Below, piece by piece: positions 1,351 to 9,829 of a stretch of DNA of 64,000 nucleotides. Both the position numbers and the translations under genes were made by a program. The DNA is from Candidatus Ruminimicrobiellum bubulum (GTDB lineage Bacteria > Elusimicrobiota > Endomicrobiia > Endomicrobiales > Endomicrobiaceae): assembly GCA_017651625.1 (NCBI GenBank), contig JAGCCP010000055.1, positions 62,001 through 126,000 on the forward strand, given 5' to 3'. Under the pieces are notes generated by a model. The model saw only the letters and a program-made list of their open reading frames with translations, was not told where the DNA came from and searched no databases. Numbering within the stretch: position 1 is the first letter of the stretch; every line of letters starts with the position of its first letter.

Positions 1351-3462
1351 ATGTTAAAAAATATAATAAAATCTTCTTTTTATTCATTTATAATTTCTTT
1401 CCTTTTTGTTTTTTGGAAAGTTTTATCCGGTGAAAGAATAGTAAATTATAATTTCGTTTATAAATTTTTAGAATATACACAAGTAACATTTTTAAGTTTA
1501 CTTGTGTTTTTTCTTTTGGTTTCTTTTTTTATATACCTATACATAAACAAAAGCAAAATAATAAACGATTATATATACAAGTACAGATGGATTATTGCTA
1601 TCATTATTTTGTTATTTTGTGTAATCTTTAAAATTTCCGGATCAAGTATTGGAAGTTGGATGTATGTTACACAAGAACAAATGGAAGATAAAGATCTGTT
1701 AATAGGTCCGAATCGTTCCGCCCATGCAGATGAATACTGTGTATATACTCCTATGACAATATCTCAATTCTATAACAAAAATCAAAAATATCCGTATTTT
1801 AGTGATACTCTGAGAGCAACCAAGACGGATACATTTATTGTTTACGGACAACCCGTAAAAGATTTTTTTGTATTGTTTAGGCCTTTCCATATACCATATT
1901 TATTTTTAGATTTAGAAAGAGGTTTCTCTTTTTATTGGTGTAGCCGTATTATTGTGTTATTTATGCTTACATTTGAATTTTTTATGTTGTTTACGAGAAA
2001 AAACAAATTGTTGTCCTTTGTAAGCACTGTGCTAGTAACATTTTCTCCTACAATTCAATGGTGGATATCTGTGAACTCTTTGGTAGAAATGATAATTTTC
2101 GGCGAACTGTTTATCTTGCTTTTGAATCTATATATAAACTCAAAATATAAATTAAGAATATTATTTTGTATTTTGTTGGCATATACAACATTTGCCTATA
2201 CATTGACTTTTTATCCTGCTTGGCAAATTCCTTTTGCTTATATGTTTTTAGTCTTTACAATATATTTGATCGTTGAGAATAGAGATAAATTTTGCATAAA
2301 GAAAGACGGACTTATTTTTGTTTTGTATATAGCAATATTATTTCTGTTTGTATATTTGCTTTTGTTGAAGTCCGGAAATACGATTCAAAATGTTACTTCA
2401 ACAGTTTATCCCGGTAAGAGAGTATCCAATGGCGGCGGAAGTTTTTTTGATTTATTCCATTATCCGTATACACTTACACTTGCTTTAACGTCACTTTCTT
2501 TTCATGTTAATTCGGAAATATGGGGAAAGTTTACATCTTTCTTTGATTTTTTTCCGATAGGTATAATTTTCTCTATGATAGTTTTGTTTAAACAAAAAAG
2601 CAAAAACAAACTTTTGGTACTTACATTATGTTTATATGTATTTTTATTTGTGTATATATCTTTCGGATTTCCGGAATTTATATCAAGAATAACATTAATG
2701 TCGCATGCTACATCTTTCAGGGCTTTTTCCGTGCTGAGTTTTATCAATTTATTTTTGTTGATATATTCATTATCATTAATAGAATTTAAAATTAAATTGT
2801 CATATTCCGTAATTTATTCGTTAATATTGACTTATATCATAATAACAATTTCTATAATAAGAAATATAAATTATTATTCTCACTATTTGTTGATAATTTT
2901 AGTTCCGGTAGTGTTTTTATCTTTTCTTTTTCTATTTACGGGAAAAAAGAAATCGTTTGTTTTTATAGTTTTATTAATATCTTTTTTTAGCGGAATATTG
3001 GCAAATCCCGTAAGAACAGGACTGCAACCAATTCTTAATAACAGTTTGTTTTTAAATATAAGAGAACAAACCGTAAAGGATGAAGGCGTTTGGATTGTAG
3101 AGAATTTATATTTTCCTATTAATAATTATCCTGTAATGGCAGGAGCACCGACAATAAATTGTACGAATACTTATCCTAATTTAAGTTTAATGTATACTTT
3201 AGATCCTATAAAAAAATATGAAGACATTTATAACAGATACGGAAGTTTTATGTTTATTATTACAAATGAAGAAACAAGATTTGAACTGTTAAATCCGGAT
3301 TTATTTAATATATACATTAATGTGGATGATGTTGTAAAATTAAATTCAAGATTTATTTTAACTAACAGGAATTTGGAACAATTCAGTAATTCAAAAGTAT
3401 CTTTTGTAAAAATAAAAGACATATTCGAATACAAAATTTATGAAATAAAACACCTTTCTTGA
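1351..3462 (+). CDS. Large polytopic membrane protein, GT-C-like, polysaccharide region
   Basis: This 703-residue protein has many hydrophobic helices (about twelve or more) spread over residues 10-560, then a soluble C-terminal tail. A polar loop after the second or third helix (about residues 110-170) is rich in Tyr, Asp and Arg (GPNRSAHADEYC, YGQPVKDFF). This layout resembles GT-C type membrane glycosyltransferases that use lipid-linked sugars, but I see no diagnostic motif, so the function is inferred. It starts 9 nt after dapB without a clear Shine-Dalgarno and ends convergently with the sugar transferase at 3549. It could instead be a polysaccharide-export or unknown membrane protein. 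Confidence 0.6.
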   Translation: MLKNIIKSSFYSFIISFLFVFWKVLSGERIVNYNFVYKFLEYTQVTFLSLLVFFLLVSFFIYLYINKSKIINDYIYKYRWIIAIIILLFCVIFKISGSSIGSWMYVTQEQMEDKDLLIGPNRSAHADEYCVYTPMTISQFYNKNQKYPYFSDTLRATKTDTFIVYGQPVKDFFVLFRPFHIPYLFLDLERGFSFYWCSRIIVLFMLTFEFFMLFTRKNKLLSFVSTVLVTFSPTIQWWISVNSLVEMIIFGELFILLLNLYINSKYKLRILFCILLAYTTFAYTLTFYPAWQIPFAYMFLVFTIYLIVENRDKFCIKKDGLIFVLYIAILFLFVYLLLLKSGNTIQNVTSTVYPGKRVSNGGGSFFDLFHYPYTLTLALTSLSFHVNSEIWGKFTSFFDFFPIGIIFSMIVLFKQKSKNKLLVLTLCLYVFLFVYISFGFPEFISRITLMSHATSFRAFSVLSFINLFLLIYSLSLIEFKIKLSYSVIYSLILTYIIITISIIRNINYYSHYLLIILVPVVFLSFLFLFTGKKKSFVFIVLLISFFSGILANPVRTGLQPILNNSLFLNIREQTVKDEGVWIVENLYFPINNYPVMAGAPTINCTNTYPNLSLMYTLDPIKKYEDIYNRYGSFMFIITNEETRFELLNPDLFNIYINVDDVVKLNSRFILTNRNLEQFSNSKVSFVKIKDIFEYKIYEIKHLS

Positions 3463-5023: not shown

Positions 5024-6139
5024 ATGTTAGATGTCGGCTATATCATCGGAACTTTAAATCTTTCAAAAAAAGAAGAATATCTTTTAAAATTGTATACTTC
5101 AAAAACAGTAACGAAAGACGAAATTTACCGTTTATTAAATGATTTTGATTATAGCATAGAAAACGAAGAACTGGCCTTTAATTTTTTACTTGCACATTTA
5201 TTTCAAAATAATCCGCATATAGAAATTCCAAAAGATATCGAACCCAGACTGAAAGGTGTTCTGAGAATGTTTCAATATAAGAATGTTTTACTGTTGTCCG
5301 CTTTAAAACAGTTGGTTTCCAAACTAAATGAACAAAACATTCCGGTGTTACTTTTAAAGGGCTCGGTAATGAGAATTATCGAACAGGATAAATTGAGACT
5401 GATGTCTGATGTGGATTGTGCCGTAGATATGGACAATTTTGATAAAACAATCAAAATAAGTGAAAGCTTGGGATTTAAGATAAATATTGTTTTTGAATAT
5501 GCTACCGAAGTAAAGAGAAATCCTATGCAAAAAATCGACATACATAAGAAATTTATAAAAGGCGATAATGATACGAGTTGTACCGAGAAAAAAATTTTTG
5601 AAAGAGCCGAACAATACAATTTCGGCAATTCAGATGTTTTTATTCCGAATACAGAAGATATGATTTTCTTGTTACTTAACAACGGTTATGATAATATTAT
5701 TTATTCTCAACCTTTTTATAAAAATGTTTCATGGTTGTTTGATGTTATATATATTATAAAAAATAATAAAAGTATAGATTGGAATATTGTAATATCAAAT
5801 GCAAAAGAGAGTAAAACTATTGCTCAAATAAAGATAATGCTCGAACTTGTTAATCATTTTTCACCAAATACTATTCCTAATGAAATTCTATCTTCGATAA
5901 ATATATCGAAACAGGAATATGACATTAATGATTCTTATACTAAAAAACATTTGTTTTTCCATAAAGCACAACAACTGAAATGTCAGGCAAGAGAGTTAAT
6001 AATAGGTAAGAAAATTTCGGATATCTTTTCTATAATAAACTTATTGAGTCAGTTTTTATATATTAAAATAATACAAAAAACACCTATAATAAAATCTTTG
6101 TTTTTTAATAAGGTGGCAAACAGGATGTTTAAAATATGA
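5024..6139 (+). CDS. Nucleotidyltransferase-family protein (NTP_transf_5-like)
   Basis: This 371-residue cytosolic protein resembles the nucleotidyltransferase-fold family found beside lasso-peptide and other peptide-modification genes. The visible core is LLLKGSVM (Lys112-Gly113-Ser114) followed by the metal-binding pair S-D-V-D (Asp129 and Asp131), then a helical C-terminal half. In that family the enzyme is thought to transfer a nucleotide or handle a modified product; the substrate here is unknown. It overlaps the next gene by 4 nt (ATGA), so the two are translationally coupled. A partner kinase-like ATPase and a PqqD-like protein follow directly. Confidence 0.75.
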   Translation: MLDVGYIIGTLNLSKKEEYLLKLYTSKTVTKDEIYRLLNDFDYSIENEELAFNFLLAHLFQNNPHIEIPKDIEPRLKGVLRMFQYKNVLLLSALKQLVSKLNEQNIPVLLLKGSVMRIIEQDKLRLMSDVDCAVDMDNFDKTIKISESLGFKINIVFEYATEVKRNPMQKIDIHKKFIKGDNDTSCTEKKIFERAEQYNFGNSDVFIPNTEDMIFLLLNNGYDNIIYSQPFYKNVSWLFDVIYIIKNNKSIDWNIVISNAKESKTIAQIKIMLELVNHFSPNTIPNEILSSINISKQEYDINDSYTKKHLFFHKAQQLKCQARELIIGKKISDIFSIINLLSQFLYIKIIQKTPIIKSLFFNKVANRMFKI

Positions 6140-7203
6140 GACATGTACACGACATGAATCGGATAGACGAAACGTTTGTATTGAATGTTGATAACGGGGC
6201 TATTTTATCTGAATACTGCAAATTTTTAGATAAGAAATTTGAAGAAAAAGCAAAACAAAATTCTGTTATTACCAAATATTTGGATTTAGGTATAAAAATT
6301 ATAAGATTGCAGATTGCATACGAAAATTTTTTACCTCAACTTAAACAGTTTTTTTCTTGTTCGTTGAAAGATAGTGTTGATAAATATGATGCCACTATAT
6401 ACATATGGAAAGATAATGTTCAATCTTTTCTTACCGATCAATATAAGACGAAACTTGTAACATTGACTTACCGTGATAAGAAACTTAGAATAGACGGTGA
6501 AAATAAAATAATAGATGGTGAAAATCTTGAAGATAAAAAATGTTATTTCGTTGCGGAAGATTATTCTTATGAAGTTCTTTCAAAACAAGGTCATTTGTTT
6601 GTTAAACTTATAAGTGAGATAGTAAGAACCGAACATTCCGCTCTTGTTCATTCAGCTGCGGTTGGAATAGATAATAAAGGAGTTTTGATTTGTGCTATAG
6701 GCGGAAGCGGTAAAACTACATTGTCGGTATCTTGCTTGGCGGATGATTTCCAATATGTTGCGGATGATTACTTAATATTAAACAAAACGGATAATAATTT
6801 ATATGCGTTACCGATATATTCTATTATTAGTTTGGCGGACCACATATATAAAAAGATGCCGAATTTAAAGTCTGAATTTGTATGTGATAATTATAATAAA
6901 ATGAAGTATATTCTTAATATATCTTACTACGACGATAAACTTGCAAGAAATTTACCGATCAAGGCGGTTGTTTTTCCTAAAATCAGTAATGTGGATGAAC
7001 CGACGATGGAAAAGGCAGATAAAAATAAAGCGCTGACACAATTGATTTTTTCTACGGCGACACAAATGAACAAAGGTAATGATCCCGATTATATGAAAAT
7101 GTTGATATCTTTAATTAAAGATTTAAAATTTTATCAAATCAATTTATCTAAAGATTTAAATAAAAATGTTCAATTATTAAAACAATTTATTAAGGAGCTA
7201 TAA
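6136..7203 (+). CDS. HPr-kinase-like ATPase of a peptide/polysaccharide cassette
   Basis: This 355-residue protein has a C-terminal HPr-kinase-like P-loop domain. Walker A is GGSGKTT at residues 189-195, preceded by SALVHSAAVGID, the beta-strand context seen in HprK-related proteins, and followed by the acidic VADDYLIL segment. The N-terminal 160 residues match no domain I recognise. Relatives in paeninodin-type lasso clusters phosphorylate the precursor C-terminus; here the target is unknown. The start overlaps the upstream stop (ATGA), and the next gene begins immediately after its stop, so the three form a tight unit. Confidence 0.75.
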   Translation: MRHVHDMNRIDETFVLNVDNGAILSEYCKFLDKKFEEKAKQNSVITKYLDLGIKIIRLQIAYENFLPQLKQFFSCSLKDSVDKYDATIYIWKDNVQSFLTDQYKTKLVTLTYRDKKLRIDGENKIIDGENLEDKKCYFVAEDYSYEVLSKQGHLFVKLISEIVRTEHSALVHSAAVGIDNKGVLICAIGGSGKTTLSVSCLADDFQYVADDYLILNKTDNNLYALPIYSIISLADHIYKKMPNLKSEFVCDNYNKMKYILNISYYDDKLARNLPIKAVVFPKISNVDEPTMEKADKNKALTQLIFSTATQMNKGNDPDYMKMLISLIKDLKFYQINLSKDLNKNVQLLKQFIKEL

Positions 7204-7641
7204 ATGTATAAGTTAAACGAATCAAAAATGTTTGCCGATGTAACGAATAATGTTGCTATCATAATAAATTCCGAAACGGGAATTTACTATGCTCTTAACA
7301 GTTGCGGAAGTGTTGTTTTTCAAGCAATACTTGACGGATGTTCAACACAATCAATTGCCGATAATCTAAAAAAAATTGAAAACTGTCCTTCCGATGTTGA
7401 TCAAAAGTTAAAAGCTTTTATCGACGATCTTTTACAAAAAGAAATAATTGTCGAAGGTGAACAAACTTCAAAAATACCTAATTTCGATGAAGTTGTTGTA
7501 AAACAAGATAACTTTGAAATGAAAGTATTGGAATATGCCGATGCTCAGGAAATGTTACTTGCCGATCCGATACACGATGTCGATGAAAAAGAAGGTTGGC
7601 AACCTGTTTTTAAGGAAGAGAAAGATAATAATGATAAATAA
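7204..7641 (+). CDS. PqqD/RRE-family protein with a conserved-looking acidic tail
   Basis: Residues 1-88 look like a PqqD-type winged-helix RiPP recognition element: a start like YKLNESKMFADV, then NSETGIYYALNSCGSVVFQAILDG and a following helical pair. Such domains normally present a leader peptide to a modifying enzyme. The protein is 145 residues, against roughly 90 for stand-alone PqqD. The extra tail carries EYADAQEMLLADPIHDVDEKEGW (written here as two blocks, residues 110-120 and 121-132), followed by a charged end. Its Shine-Dalgarno (aaggag) lies in the kinase gene. It overlaps the following glycosyltransferase by 11 nt. Confidence 0.8.
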   Translation: MYKLNESKMFADVTNNVAIIINSETGIYYALNSCGSVVFQAILDGCSTQSIADNLKKIENCPSDVDQKLKAFIDDLLQKEIIVEGEQTSKIPNFDEVVVKQDNFEMKVLEYADAQEMLLADPIHDVDEKEGWQPVFKEEKDNNDK

Positions 7642-8317
7642 CAATCCGTTAATTTCGGTAATGATGCCGACATACAATAATGCCGGATATATTAGTCAGG
7701 CAGTAGAAAGTGTTTATGCTCAAAAATATGACAATATTGAAATTGTTGTTGTAGATGACGGTTCTACGGACAACACAAAAGAAGTATTGAAAAAATATAA
7801 AGGTATAAAATATTTTTATATAGAACATAAAGGAATATCTTTTGCAAGAAACATAGCACTTGAAAAATCGAAAGGGGAATATATAGCATTTTGTGATTCC
7901 GACGATTATTGGCTACCCGGCAAAATAAATACACAAATACAATATTTTAAAGAACATCCCGATTGCGAAATAGTTTTTACAAAATATGAAAATCTTTTTG
8001 AAGATGAAAAACTTAAAACAAACAAAAGAGCAATGCATGAAAAATTAATGGAAAAGTTTTTAAAACAATATTTGCCGAGCAGTATTATAAAAAAAGAATT
8101 GTTTGAAAAATACGGTAATTTCGATGAAAACTTCAGCGGTGTGGAAGATACGGAATTTTTATATAGAATTAAAAGAAAAGGAGCAAATATCGATCATGTT
8201 ATTTCCGATATTTTCTATATAAGAAGAATTCACGGAAACAATGTAACTTTAAATTACAATAAAGATACCATAAAATATATTACGGCTATATTGAGAAAAG
8301 GAGTATTAAACAAATGA
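7631..8317 (+). CDS. Family 2 glycosyltransferase
   Basis: This 228-residue GT-A enzyme starts with ISVMMPTYNNAGYISQAVES and contains VVDDGSTD and the metal-binding D-S-D-D at FCDSDDYW, the standard GT2 motifs. The ATG at 7631 was chosen over an upstream in-frame ATG (7535). It follows aaggaagag at a proper distance, matches the family start, and overlaps pqqD-like by only 11 nt. It overlaps the next GT2 gene by 4 nt. The sugar donor and acceptor are unknown; it probably works on the polysaccharide or on the product of the upstream cassette. Confidence 0.88.
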   Translation: MINNNPLISVMMPTYNNAGYISQAVESVYAQKYDNIEIVVVDDGSTDNTKEVLKKYKGIKYFYIEHKGISFARNIALEKSKGEYIAFCDSDDYWLPGKINTQIQYFKEHPDCEIVFTKYENLFEDEKLKTNKRAMHEKLMEKFLKQYLPSSIIKKELFEKYGNFDENFSGVEDTEFLYRIKRKGANIDHVISDIFYIRRIHGNNVTLNYNKDTIKYITAILRKGVLNK

Positions 8318-8973
8318 TATCTGTAATAATAGCAGCAAAAAATGCATCCAGGTATATTAAAGAAGCTATAGAAAGTGTTCAAAAACAAAATGTACAAGAT
8401 ATGGAAATGATAGTTGTATGTGATTCTTGTACCGATAATACAAAACAAATAGCTGAAGATTTGGGGTGTAAGACAATAGAAGTAAAATTTTCTCATATAG
8501 GAAAGACAAGAAATGCCGGACTTAAAGAGGCTAAAGGCGAGTATATTTTATACGTTGATTCCGATGATGTTATGGAAAAAGACGGTATATTGAATTTATA
8601 TAATGAGTTTTTAAAAGACAATACTGTTGAAGCCGTTTTCAGTATGTCGCATGAATTTGTTTCTCCCGAATTATCCGATGCGGATAAAGGCAAATTGAGA
8701 GCAAGACAAGACGATTATTTCGGCGCACTTGCCGGATGTTCCATAATAAAAAAAGAAGTTTTTGATAAAATAGGAACTTTTGATGAAGTTTTAAAAGCCG
8801 GTGATATTGTAGAATATCAAATAAGATTGCAACAAAAAAATATTAAGGTAAAAAAAATACCTGTTGTTACTTCGAGAAGAAGATTACATAATAATAATTT
8901 TGGCAGAAGTAATAAACAACAGGAATATAAAGATTATATTACGATTTTAAGAAACAAACTAAACAAAAAATAA
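8314..8973 (+). CDS. Family 2 glycosyltransferase
   Basis: This 219-residue protein begins ISVIIAAKNASRYIKEAIES and carries VVCDSCTDNT and VDSDDVM, which are GT2 nucleotide-sugar and metal-binding motifs. It is translationally coupled to the preceding GT2 (ATGA overlap). The two are paralogous in plan but clearly diverged. It ends the five-gene run that begins with the nucleotidyltransferase and converges on the radical SAM gene. There are no membrane segments, so it acts in the cytosol or at the inner membrane face. Confidence 0.87.
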   Translation: MISVIIAAKNASRYIKEAIESVQKQNVQDMEMIVVCDSCTDNTKQIAEDLGCKTIEVKFSHIGKTRNAGLKEAKGEYILYVDSDDVMEKDGILNLYNEFLKDNTVEAVFSMSHEFVSPELSDADKGKLRARQDDYFGALAGCSIIKKEVFDKIGTFDEVLKAGDIVEYQIRLQQKNIKVKKIPVVTSRRRLHNNNFGRSNKQQEYKDYITILRNKLNKK

Positions 8974-8983
8974 ATATAAAATA

Positions 8984-9829
8984 TTAGTCTATTTTTCCGT
9001 TCCAATCTGTTTCTTTAGGATTGTTTGAGCATCCCCAAGTTATGTAGTTAGCAACAATAGTGCAATATTTACATGTTTCTTCACTTTTGCGAAGATTTTT
9101 TAAAATTTGTTTTGCGGAATTAGAATAAATGTTTATTCCTTTAGGTACAGGAATATTTTTATTGAAATGTTTATTGTAAGTATCAATATATGCACATATC
9201 GGGCAAATATAAAAACTATCGTCTCTTAATATTGTGCAATATGCATGCCTGCAATTTTTAAAAGTTTTTTCTCTGTCGGATGTTCCCTTAGGATTTAAGT
9301 TAGCGGTAAAATTCATAATCATAGGTGTTACCGAATAGTTTATTTTAAAAGAAGAAAGTATTTCTTTCAATTTTTTTAGTTTGTTTTGAGTTGGCGGATA
9401 ATTTGATATTTGAATTGAAATATTGTTTTCATTTAAAGTCCGGAAAAATTCTTCCGACATCTTATCCAATAACAAACCGTTTGTAACTAATTCAATTTTG
9501 GAATAAGGTAAAGCCTTTCGAGATAAATTCAATATATTTATAATATCTGGATGCAATAAAGGTTCTCCGCCTAAAAGTCTGAATTTGATTATTTTCCCGA
9601 AAATACAATTTAATCTGCAGAGATGTATGTATAATATCGTTGCATCCAAAAACTTCGGTTCCGATATGTTTGAAAAGTGAGTACAACCGATACATTTTAA
9701 ATTGCAATGGTCAACAATATTAGTTTCGAAATAAGGAATGGTCGTTCCGTAAATAAGTGCACGAATTGCATACTTTATTTTTAGAAGTATCGGAAATTTA
9801 GTTTTCAAAAAATGTTTAATTTGTCCCAT
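8984..9829 (-). CDS. Radical SAM protein with C-terminal cysteine cluster (SPASM-like)
   Basis: The 281-residue protein has the radical SAM cluster C-x3-C-x2-C at Cys42, Cys46 and Cys49 (DHCNLKCIGCTHF), the LLGGEPLLHPD segment for SAM binding, and a TNG strand. The C-terminal half has further cysteines in CRHAYC, CPIC and CKYC, suggesting auxiliary iron-sulfur clusters as in SPASM enzymes. Such enzymes modify peptides or sugars. It lies opposite to, and convergent with, the PqqD-containing gene set 1.3 kb away. A functional link to that RRE protein is only inferred. Confidence 0.88.
   Translation of the reverse strand: MGQIKHFLKTKFPILLKIKYAIRALIYGTTIPYFETNIVDHCNLKCIGCTHFSNISEPKFLDATILYIHLCRLNCIFGKIIKFRLLGGEPLLHPDIINILNLSRKALPYSKIELVTNGLLLDKMSEEFFRTLNENNISIQISNYPPTQNKLKKLKEILSSFKINYSVTPMIMNFTANLNPKGTSDREKTFKNCRHAYCTILRDDSFYICPICAYIDTYNKHFNKNIPVPKGINIYSNSAKQILKNLRKSEETCKYCTIVANYITWGCSNNPKETDWNGKID

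Follow-up and report, generated by a model that had tools for sequence, protein, structure and literature searches.

The window analysed here, a stretch of 64,000 nucleotides from contig JAGCCP010000055.1 of Candidatus Ruminimicrobiellum bubulum (Elusimicrobiota), carries a polysaccharide locus in which the genes for an NTP_transf_5 nucleotidyltransferase, an HprK-like kinase and a PqqD-type RRE protein lie on the same strand, overlapping or abutting head to tail in the list of open reading frames (Table 1). A sequence-only reading of this DNA had proposed such a triad, naming the kinase Walker A motif (GGSGKTT) and two GT2 glycosyltransferase genes directly downstream, and both the reading frames and the profile and fold comparisons agree with it. 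The same reading had found the cyclase and protease of lasso clusters to be missing; consistent with this, no lasso macrolactam (Asn-synthetase-like) cyclase was detected among the scanned window genes around the triad, and the lasso leader peptidase B2 (PF13471) had no match anywhere in the window's genome or in those of four relatives. The window operon contains no separate precursor gene, nor a gene for an SpI-like signal peptidase of the LppS type, which is likewise missing from the canonical operon of a Nitrospirae genome (L070) described below. Upstream of the cassette, window positions 1351-3462 encode a 703-residue membrane protein that matches DUF7657 and DUF7654 only and is absent from this position in the relatives L013 and L014. 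A second NTP_transf_5 gene of the same genome (L003:7729-8907, contig C54) lies about 59 kb upstream of the cassette; its product is 22% identical, it is adjoined by two large membrane proteins, and no kinase or PqqD gene was seen beside it.

Table 1. Genes and protein segments of the cassette, in positions of the window
Feature	Position	Strand	Size, sequence or evidence
NTP_transf_5 nucleotidyltransferase (PsmN/LppN-type)	5024..6139	+	371 aa; PF14907 E 1.6e-24, above cut-off
HprK/PEPCK-fold kinase	6136..7203	+	355 aa; TIGR04352 E 2e-9; AF2 fold
RRE protein, PqqD-type, whole gene	7204..7641	+	145 aa; PF05402 E 6e-7, above cut-off
RRE domain (PqqD-type), residues 1-84	7204..7455	+	PF05402; AF2 model vs TbiB1
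Variable linker of RRE protein, residues 85-101	7456..7506	+	9% identity between distant homologues
Conserved C-terminal tail of RRE protein, residues 102-138	7507..7617	+	63% identity; AF2 strand and helix
Leader-like part of tail, residues 104-120			FEMKVLEYADAQEMLLA
Core-like part of tail, residues 121-134			DPIHDVDEKEGWQP
GT2 glycosyltransferase a	7631..8317	+	PF00535 E 1.1e-35; ATG start overlaps PqqD stop codon
GT2 glycosyltransferase b	8314..8973	+	PF00535 E 3.8e-24
Radical SAM gene	8984-9829	-	begins 1.34 kb past RRE gene

The RRE domain belongs to the PqqD family and has the winged-helix RRE fold, as judged from its match to PF05402 and from its AF2 model, whose nearest solved structures are leader-bound lasso RREs, with TbiB1 and TfuB1 closest (Z about 10; Z 10.7 against TbiB1 for residues 2-85, over 83 residues). 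Within the NTP_transf_5 protein, the motif R125...D129-x-D131 is retained in most homologues (R125 in 84/90, D131 in 80/90). The kinase is weakly recognized by sequence and clearly by fold: its best NCBIfam match, to HprK-related kinase A of the HPr-rel-A system, scored 36.9 bits, so far under the TIGR04352 cut-off of 200 that membership was rejected, and its AF2 model (mean pLDDT 90.5) showed a full-length PEP carboxykinase (PEPCK) fold (Z 18) and resembled the HPr kinase catalytic domain (Z 14.3). Going by this predicted structure, it is therefore better named an HprK/PEPCK-fold kinase. Residues H172, K193 (Walker A), D210, D211 and K257 are invariant, and with the first four of these (58/58 homologues) the protein keeps the His-Lys-Asp-Asp set of the lasso-type kinases PadeK and ThcoK, a catalytic motif described for lasso kinases (PMC9266682).

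The RRE gene is present in four other genomes of the same genus or family. Three of these keep the order NTP-kinase-PqqD-GT2-GT2 at 50-92% identity, one of them with a GT2 gene between the NTP and kinase genes and an extra GT2, whilst the contig of the fourth ends at the PqqD gene; the cassette order is therefore not due to chance. Among these relatives, the RRE protein (74-83% identity) and GT2b (86-92%) are better conserved than the kinase (50-71%) and the NTP_transf_5 protein (56-64%), the sugar genes flanking the cassette differ, and the last 40 of the 145 RRE-protein residues are nearly fixed. The motif DPIH[DE]VD from this end was found elsewhere in the phylum (341 genomes searched) in just these five genomes, together with two chance matches (G262 and G280) that are not PqqD genes. 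Other members of the phylum gave weak matches to the kinase (L036-L043), which were set aside because no PqqD or NTP_transf_5 partner could be recognized by similarity.

Two genomes of the order encode distant HprK-like proteins (L036:9445-10464 and L038:9230-10255), each followed by a GT2-like gene, with no PqqD and with genes resembling radical SAM proteins, which is possibly another kinase-glycosyltransferase arrangement. The NTP_transf_5 protein of one relative (L014:12592-13695, reverse strand), from which an inserted GT2 gene separates the kinase gene, lacks the first Asp of the DxD and may be inactive. In the same class, a tailless 87-residue PqqD gene (L017:1-1838) stands beside what by eye appear to be radical SAM and S26-type peptidase genes, a possible different RiPP cluster.

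Beyond Elusimicrobiota, a plasmid of the cyanobacterium Crinalium epipsammum was found to carry the triad alongside glycosyltransferases, its RRE protein bearing the same tail. Scanning the genomes of approximately 85,000 species with an RRE-tail alignment that included the Crinalium sequence recovered 296 RRE relatives with the tail motif; searching genome contigs with only the kinase as query gave no matches. Neighbours were counted in 80 fetched loci out of these 296 with profiles built in this analysis, which replaced single-linkage clustering as the latter merged unrelated families in GC-rich loci. The 80 loci derive from more than 10 phyla, including Cyanobacteria, Nitrospirota, Deltaproteobacteria, Acidobacteria, Chloroflexi, Bacteroidetes/Ignavibacteria, Gemmatimonadetes, Lentisphaerae, Verrucomicrobia (Puniceicoccaceae), Brocadiia, Bipolaricaulota and others. 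Near the RRE gene we detected the kinase in 71/80, NTP_transf_5 in 68/80 and GT2 in 72/80 loci, with an ABC transporter in about 40/80, and kinase, NTP_transf_5 and GT2 together in 47 of the 58 loci whose downstream sequence extends for 8 kb or more. The canonical operon L070 (Nitrospirae) comprises PqqD, kinase, three GT2, ABC and NTP_transf_5 genes, each confirmed by Pfam except the kinase (Hpr_kinase_C E 4.5e-5, under cut-off). Where a locus lacked a nearby kinase or ended at a contig edge, a full-length kinase was encoded elsewhere in 10/13 genomes, amounting to 10/10 of the genomes checked away from contig ends, and NTP_transf_5 was found in 13/13 genomes tested; in two genomes, a second tailed copy stood directly beside the kinase absent from the first locus. 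Divergence of the RRE protein correlated with that of the kinase (r 0.85 over 71 loci, 0/999 permutations), and the two therefore travel together.

Lasso functions were nearly absent from these loci. A lasso cyclase or Asn synthetase occurred in 1/80, on the opposite strand, and B2 in 1/80, with PF13471 absent from 29/40 genomes overall. Thus the triad without lasso cyclase, which the sequence-only reading had suggested looking for across genomes, recurs linked to GT2 genes, and its description as an orphan gives way to that of a recurring operon. Neither result that would have counted against that reading turned up: the relatives lack a precursor gene, and the three genes stand together in other genomes as well. 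The radical SAM enzyme, correctly placed by that reading 1.3 kb away and credited with extra cysteines (seven: C193, C198, C209, C212, C253, C256 and C267), fared differently. It was rejected as a core gene on a count of 5/80 loci, mostly distant, and is an accessory gene in the window; two relatives have copies close to the cassette (74% and 65% identical), and a Syntrophaceae locus (L102) has a 30% identical one. An undecaprenyl sugar transferase was similarly rejected as a core gene (0/80 loci). The interpretation first proposed is supported in part.

The most conserved part of the cassette is the C-terminal tail of the RRE protein, to which the sequence-only reading refers and which comprises 35 residues with the consensus FxxPxLxKYTDMQDLLLLDPIHEVDExGWP. 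All fetched RRE relatives end in FxxPxLxKYTDMQ[DE]LLLLDPIH[ED]VDExGWP or a close form, and the tail alone matched no Pfam or NCBIfam family. Between pairs with less than 45% domain identity, mean identity was 35% in the domain, 9% in the linker and 63% in the tail. The 80 loci were chosen via DPIH[DE]VD, so that those seven residues are invariant by construction; after leaving out residues 119-127, the span of the search pattern, tail identity was still 54%, and D113, G131, W132 and P134 are invariant though they lie outside it. The conserved tail end contains no conserved Ser/Thr, and 48/84 sequences have no Ser/Thr/Tyr/Cys in residues 118-134; residue 112 is Thr/Ser in 72/84 and Ala or Glu in the window's lineage, and the linker carries Ser/Thr in 82/84 homologues, as any such linker might. 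Three Nitrospirota loci (L067, L068 and L085) have a further GWP/DWP repeat of similar sequence after the GWP end, which looks like a duplication of the core-like part.

The first part of the tail resembles a leader peptide. An RRE takes up its leader in the groove between strand 3 and helix 3. RREs of lasso and LPP systems bind their leaders via [Y/W]xxPx[L/V/I] followed by strand pairing with the RRE sheet (PMC13381572). The corresponding positions of the tail hold F/Y/W in 84/84, P in 78/84 and L/V/I at +2 in 80/84 sequences, with the window's lineage having Lys for the signature Pro and Ala/Glu for the Thr after Tyr and keeping the DPIH...GW end. The tail is also parallel in sequence to an actual leader of the paeninodin type, WKKPELEVLDVNKTMLGG, encoded on a Priestia plasmid; the RRE of that plasmid is 99 aa long and has no tail. 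In the AF2 model, confidence is high for residues 91-110 (pLDDT 93-95), 85 for 111-120 and low for 121-145, with tail residues 108-111, at +1 to +4 relative to the Pro position, forming a strand and residues 114-120 a helix. RRE strand 28-31, of the same length as the tail strand, corresponds to the one that pairs with the leader in the PbaB1 and LppB complexes, and from the DSSP assignments of the model we infer that the two strands pair, placing the tail at the leader position. In the public record NZ_CP064100.1, a paeninodin-type lasso kinase (L135:7045-7980) carries the annotation 'aldolase'.

A separate precursor peptide was sought in several ways. The operons of the window, its relatives and L070 are gapless, with no space in L070 big enough for a peptide gene, and no conserved precursor or plausible small-ORF peptide family was found near the 80 loci, where by inspection the recurring small-ORF clusters were other-frame copies of neighbouring genes. 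Leader-like small ORFs did not outnumber those in a control of reversed sequences (50 vs 50). Searching 32 whole genomes with a tail profile returned no free-standing tail, only tails in frames of PqqD size or longer, with one copy in 27/32 genomes, including the window's, and two or three in the others.

On balance, and with modest confidence, we favour a mechanism in which an RRE with a built-in leader scaffolds the kinase, the nucleotidyltransferase and the GT2 enzymes in making a phospho-glycan product. The tail would be a leader peptide that has been transferred from a precursor to the RRE, turning the RRE protein into a self-presenting scaffold: residues 104-120 would sit in cis in the protein's own leader groove, and residues 121-134 (DPIHxVDxxxGWxP) would stay exposed for docking or presentation, recruiting partner enzymes. 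The kinase would phosphorylate an acceptor, the NTP_transf_5 enzyme would then add a sugar (or nucleotide) to the phosphate, as PsmN does in pseudomycoidin, and the GT2 enzymes would extend the sugar; the product may be exported by the MsbA-type ABC protein where one is present, and possibly by the polysaccharide exporter in the window locus. This order of reactions is sensible given the PsmN precedent, an annotated nucleotidyltransferase that adds hexoses to phosphoserine, with indirect action of a host glycosyltransferase not excluded (PMC9266682). Because the conserved tail end has no conserved Ser/Thr, its phosphorylation is unlikely, and a non-peptide acceptor (glycan or lipid-linked) or the Ser/Thr-bearing linker is likelier. 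Only tentatively would we generalize the mechanism to a widespread RRE class that carries its leader in cis and, with kinase, NTP_transf_5 and GT2s, builds a phosphate-linked glycan without a separate precursor, an extension that is possible rather than probable.

Alternatively, the protein could be a fusion of RRE and precursor, the tail itself being the substrate, modified on His/Asp/Trp of DPIHxVDxxGWP or on linker Ser/Thr; it might also be released and exported as a small RiPP. The succession of a leader-like and a fixed core-like part, an operon without any other peptide gene, a tail found free-standing in none of 32 genomes, the ABC transporter in about half of the loci and the repeated GWP end in Nitrospirota would all fit such a fusion; we nevertheless think it unlikely, since no protease gene recurs, the core is nearly invariant where RiPP cores vary, and lasso and LPP kinases act on Ser, a residue type that along with Thr, Tyr and Cys is lacking near the tail end in over half of the sequences. 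A tail serving as an autoinhibitory plug, occupying the leader groove until displaced by a true precursor encoded elsewhere in the genome, would account for the resemblance to a natural ligand fused next to its groove and for the separate precursors of LPP and lasso relatives. It is rather improbable in view of the whole-genome tail search and the small-ORF control, and it would leave the invariant segment beyond the leader part unexplained. The loss of the signature P and T in the window's lineage, with the DPIH...GW end kept, could instead indicate a docking motif unrelated to leaders (for instance for GT2 or the membrane) whose YxxPxL likeness is convergent, which we judge very improbable against the predicted strand at the leader position and the parallel to a real leader. 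A decayed lasso/LPP cluster, its genes kept by accident in a polysaccharide locus, is hardly credible: each of the three genes has homologues among lasso/LPP tailoring genes, but the operon is conserved across many phyla and its enzymes retain their catalytic residues.

The triad without cyclase is already known from clusters (lpp) of the LPP family, linear polyphosphorylated peptides of Bacillota (PMC13381572, 2026). The LPP systems share with the present one an HprK-like kinase, an NTP transferase, a discrete RRE, an MsbA-like ABC protein, the lack of a cyclase and a location in polysaccharide loci. They differ in having a separate precursor, YxxPxVLxHQxIxFETxxS, with a phosphorylated Ser, whereas here the leader-like tail is on the RRE and GT2s are constant partners. 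They also encode the signal-peptidase-like LppS (PMC13381572), a type of gene not seen in the window and L070 operons; no gene for an LPP-type precursor lies in the operon, and the tail differs from it in sequence, with no conserved Ser. Similarly, the paeninodin and pseudomycoidin lasso clusters (PadeK, PsmK, PsmN; PMC9266682) possess a homologous His-Lys-Asp-Asp kinase, an NTP_transf_5-type enzyme, a PqqD-type RRE and an ABC protein, but in contrast to them cyclase and B2 are each limited to 1/80 loci here, precursor genes are missing, and the RRE bears a tail that the lasso RREs compared do not have. Identity as a lasso gene cluster was ruled out on the absence of cyclase, B2 and separate precursor gene. 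In the available portions of the RRE-Finder update (PMC12710340), PF05402 proteins longer than a discrete RRE and without another Pfam domain make up 21% of the PF05402 proteins surveyed; this unexplored group would include the tailed RREs, and those portions describe neither such a tail, its likeness to a leader nor its gene neighbours. In a literature search covering mainly open-licence papers and few preprints, we found no description of the fused leader-like tail, constant GT2s, missing precursor and peptidase or phylum spread, and the strings DPIHEVD and DPIHDVD occurred in no paper of the open-licence literature. There is a real chance that the tailed-RRE system is a class of its own.

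RREs serve as markers of peptide natural products, on the assumption that every RRE recruits a precursor encoded separately. The tailed RRE family spans hundreds of species in more than 10 phyla, and in it the RRE itself seems to contain its ligand, with sugar enzymes as neighbours. If this holds, genome miners' hunts for precursors in such clusters would come up empty, and a testable role would emerge for the PqqD-type genes of polysaccharide loci. It would also raise the question of what lasso-type kinases and NTP_transf_5 enzymes target without a peptide. On the tentative wider reading, the tailed RREs would put the recognition machinery of RiPPs to work in assembling glycans or glycoproteins.
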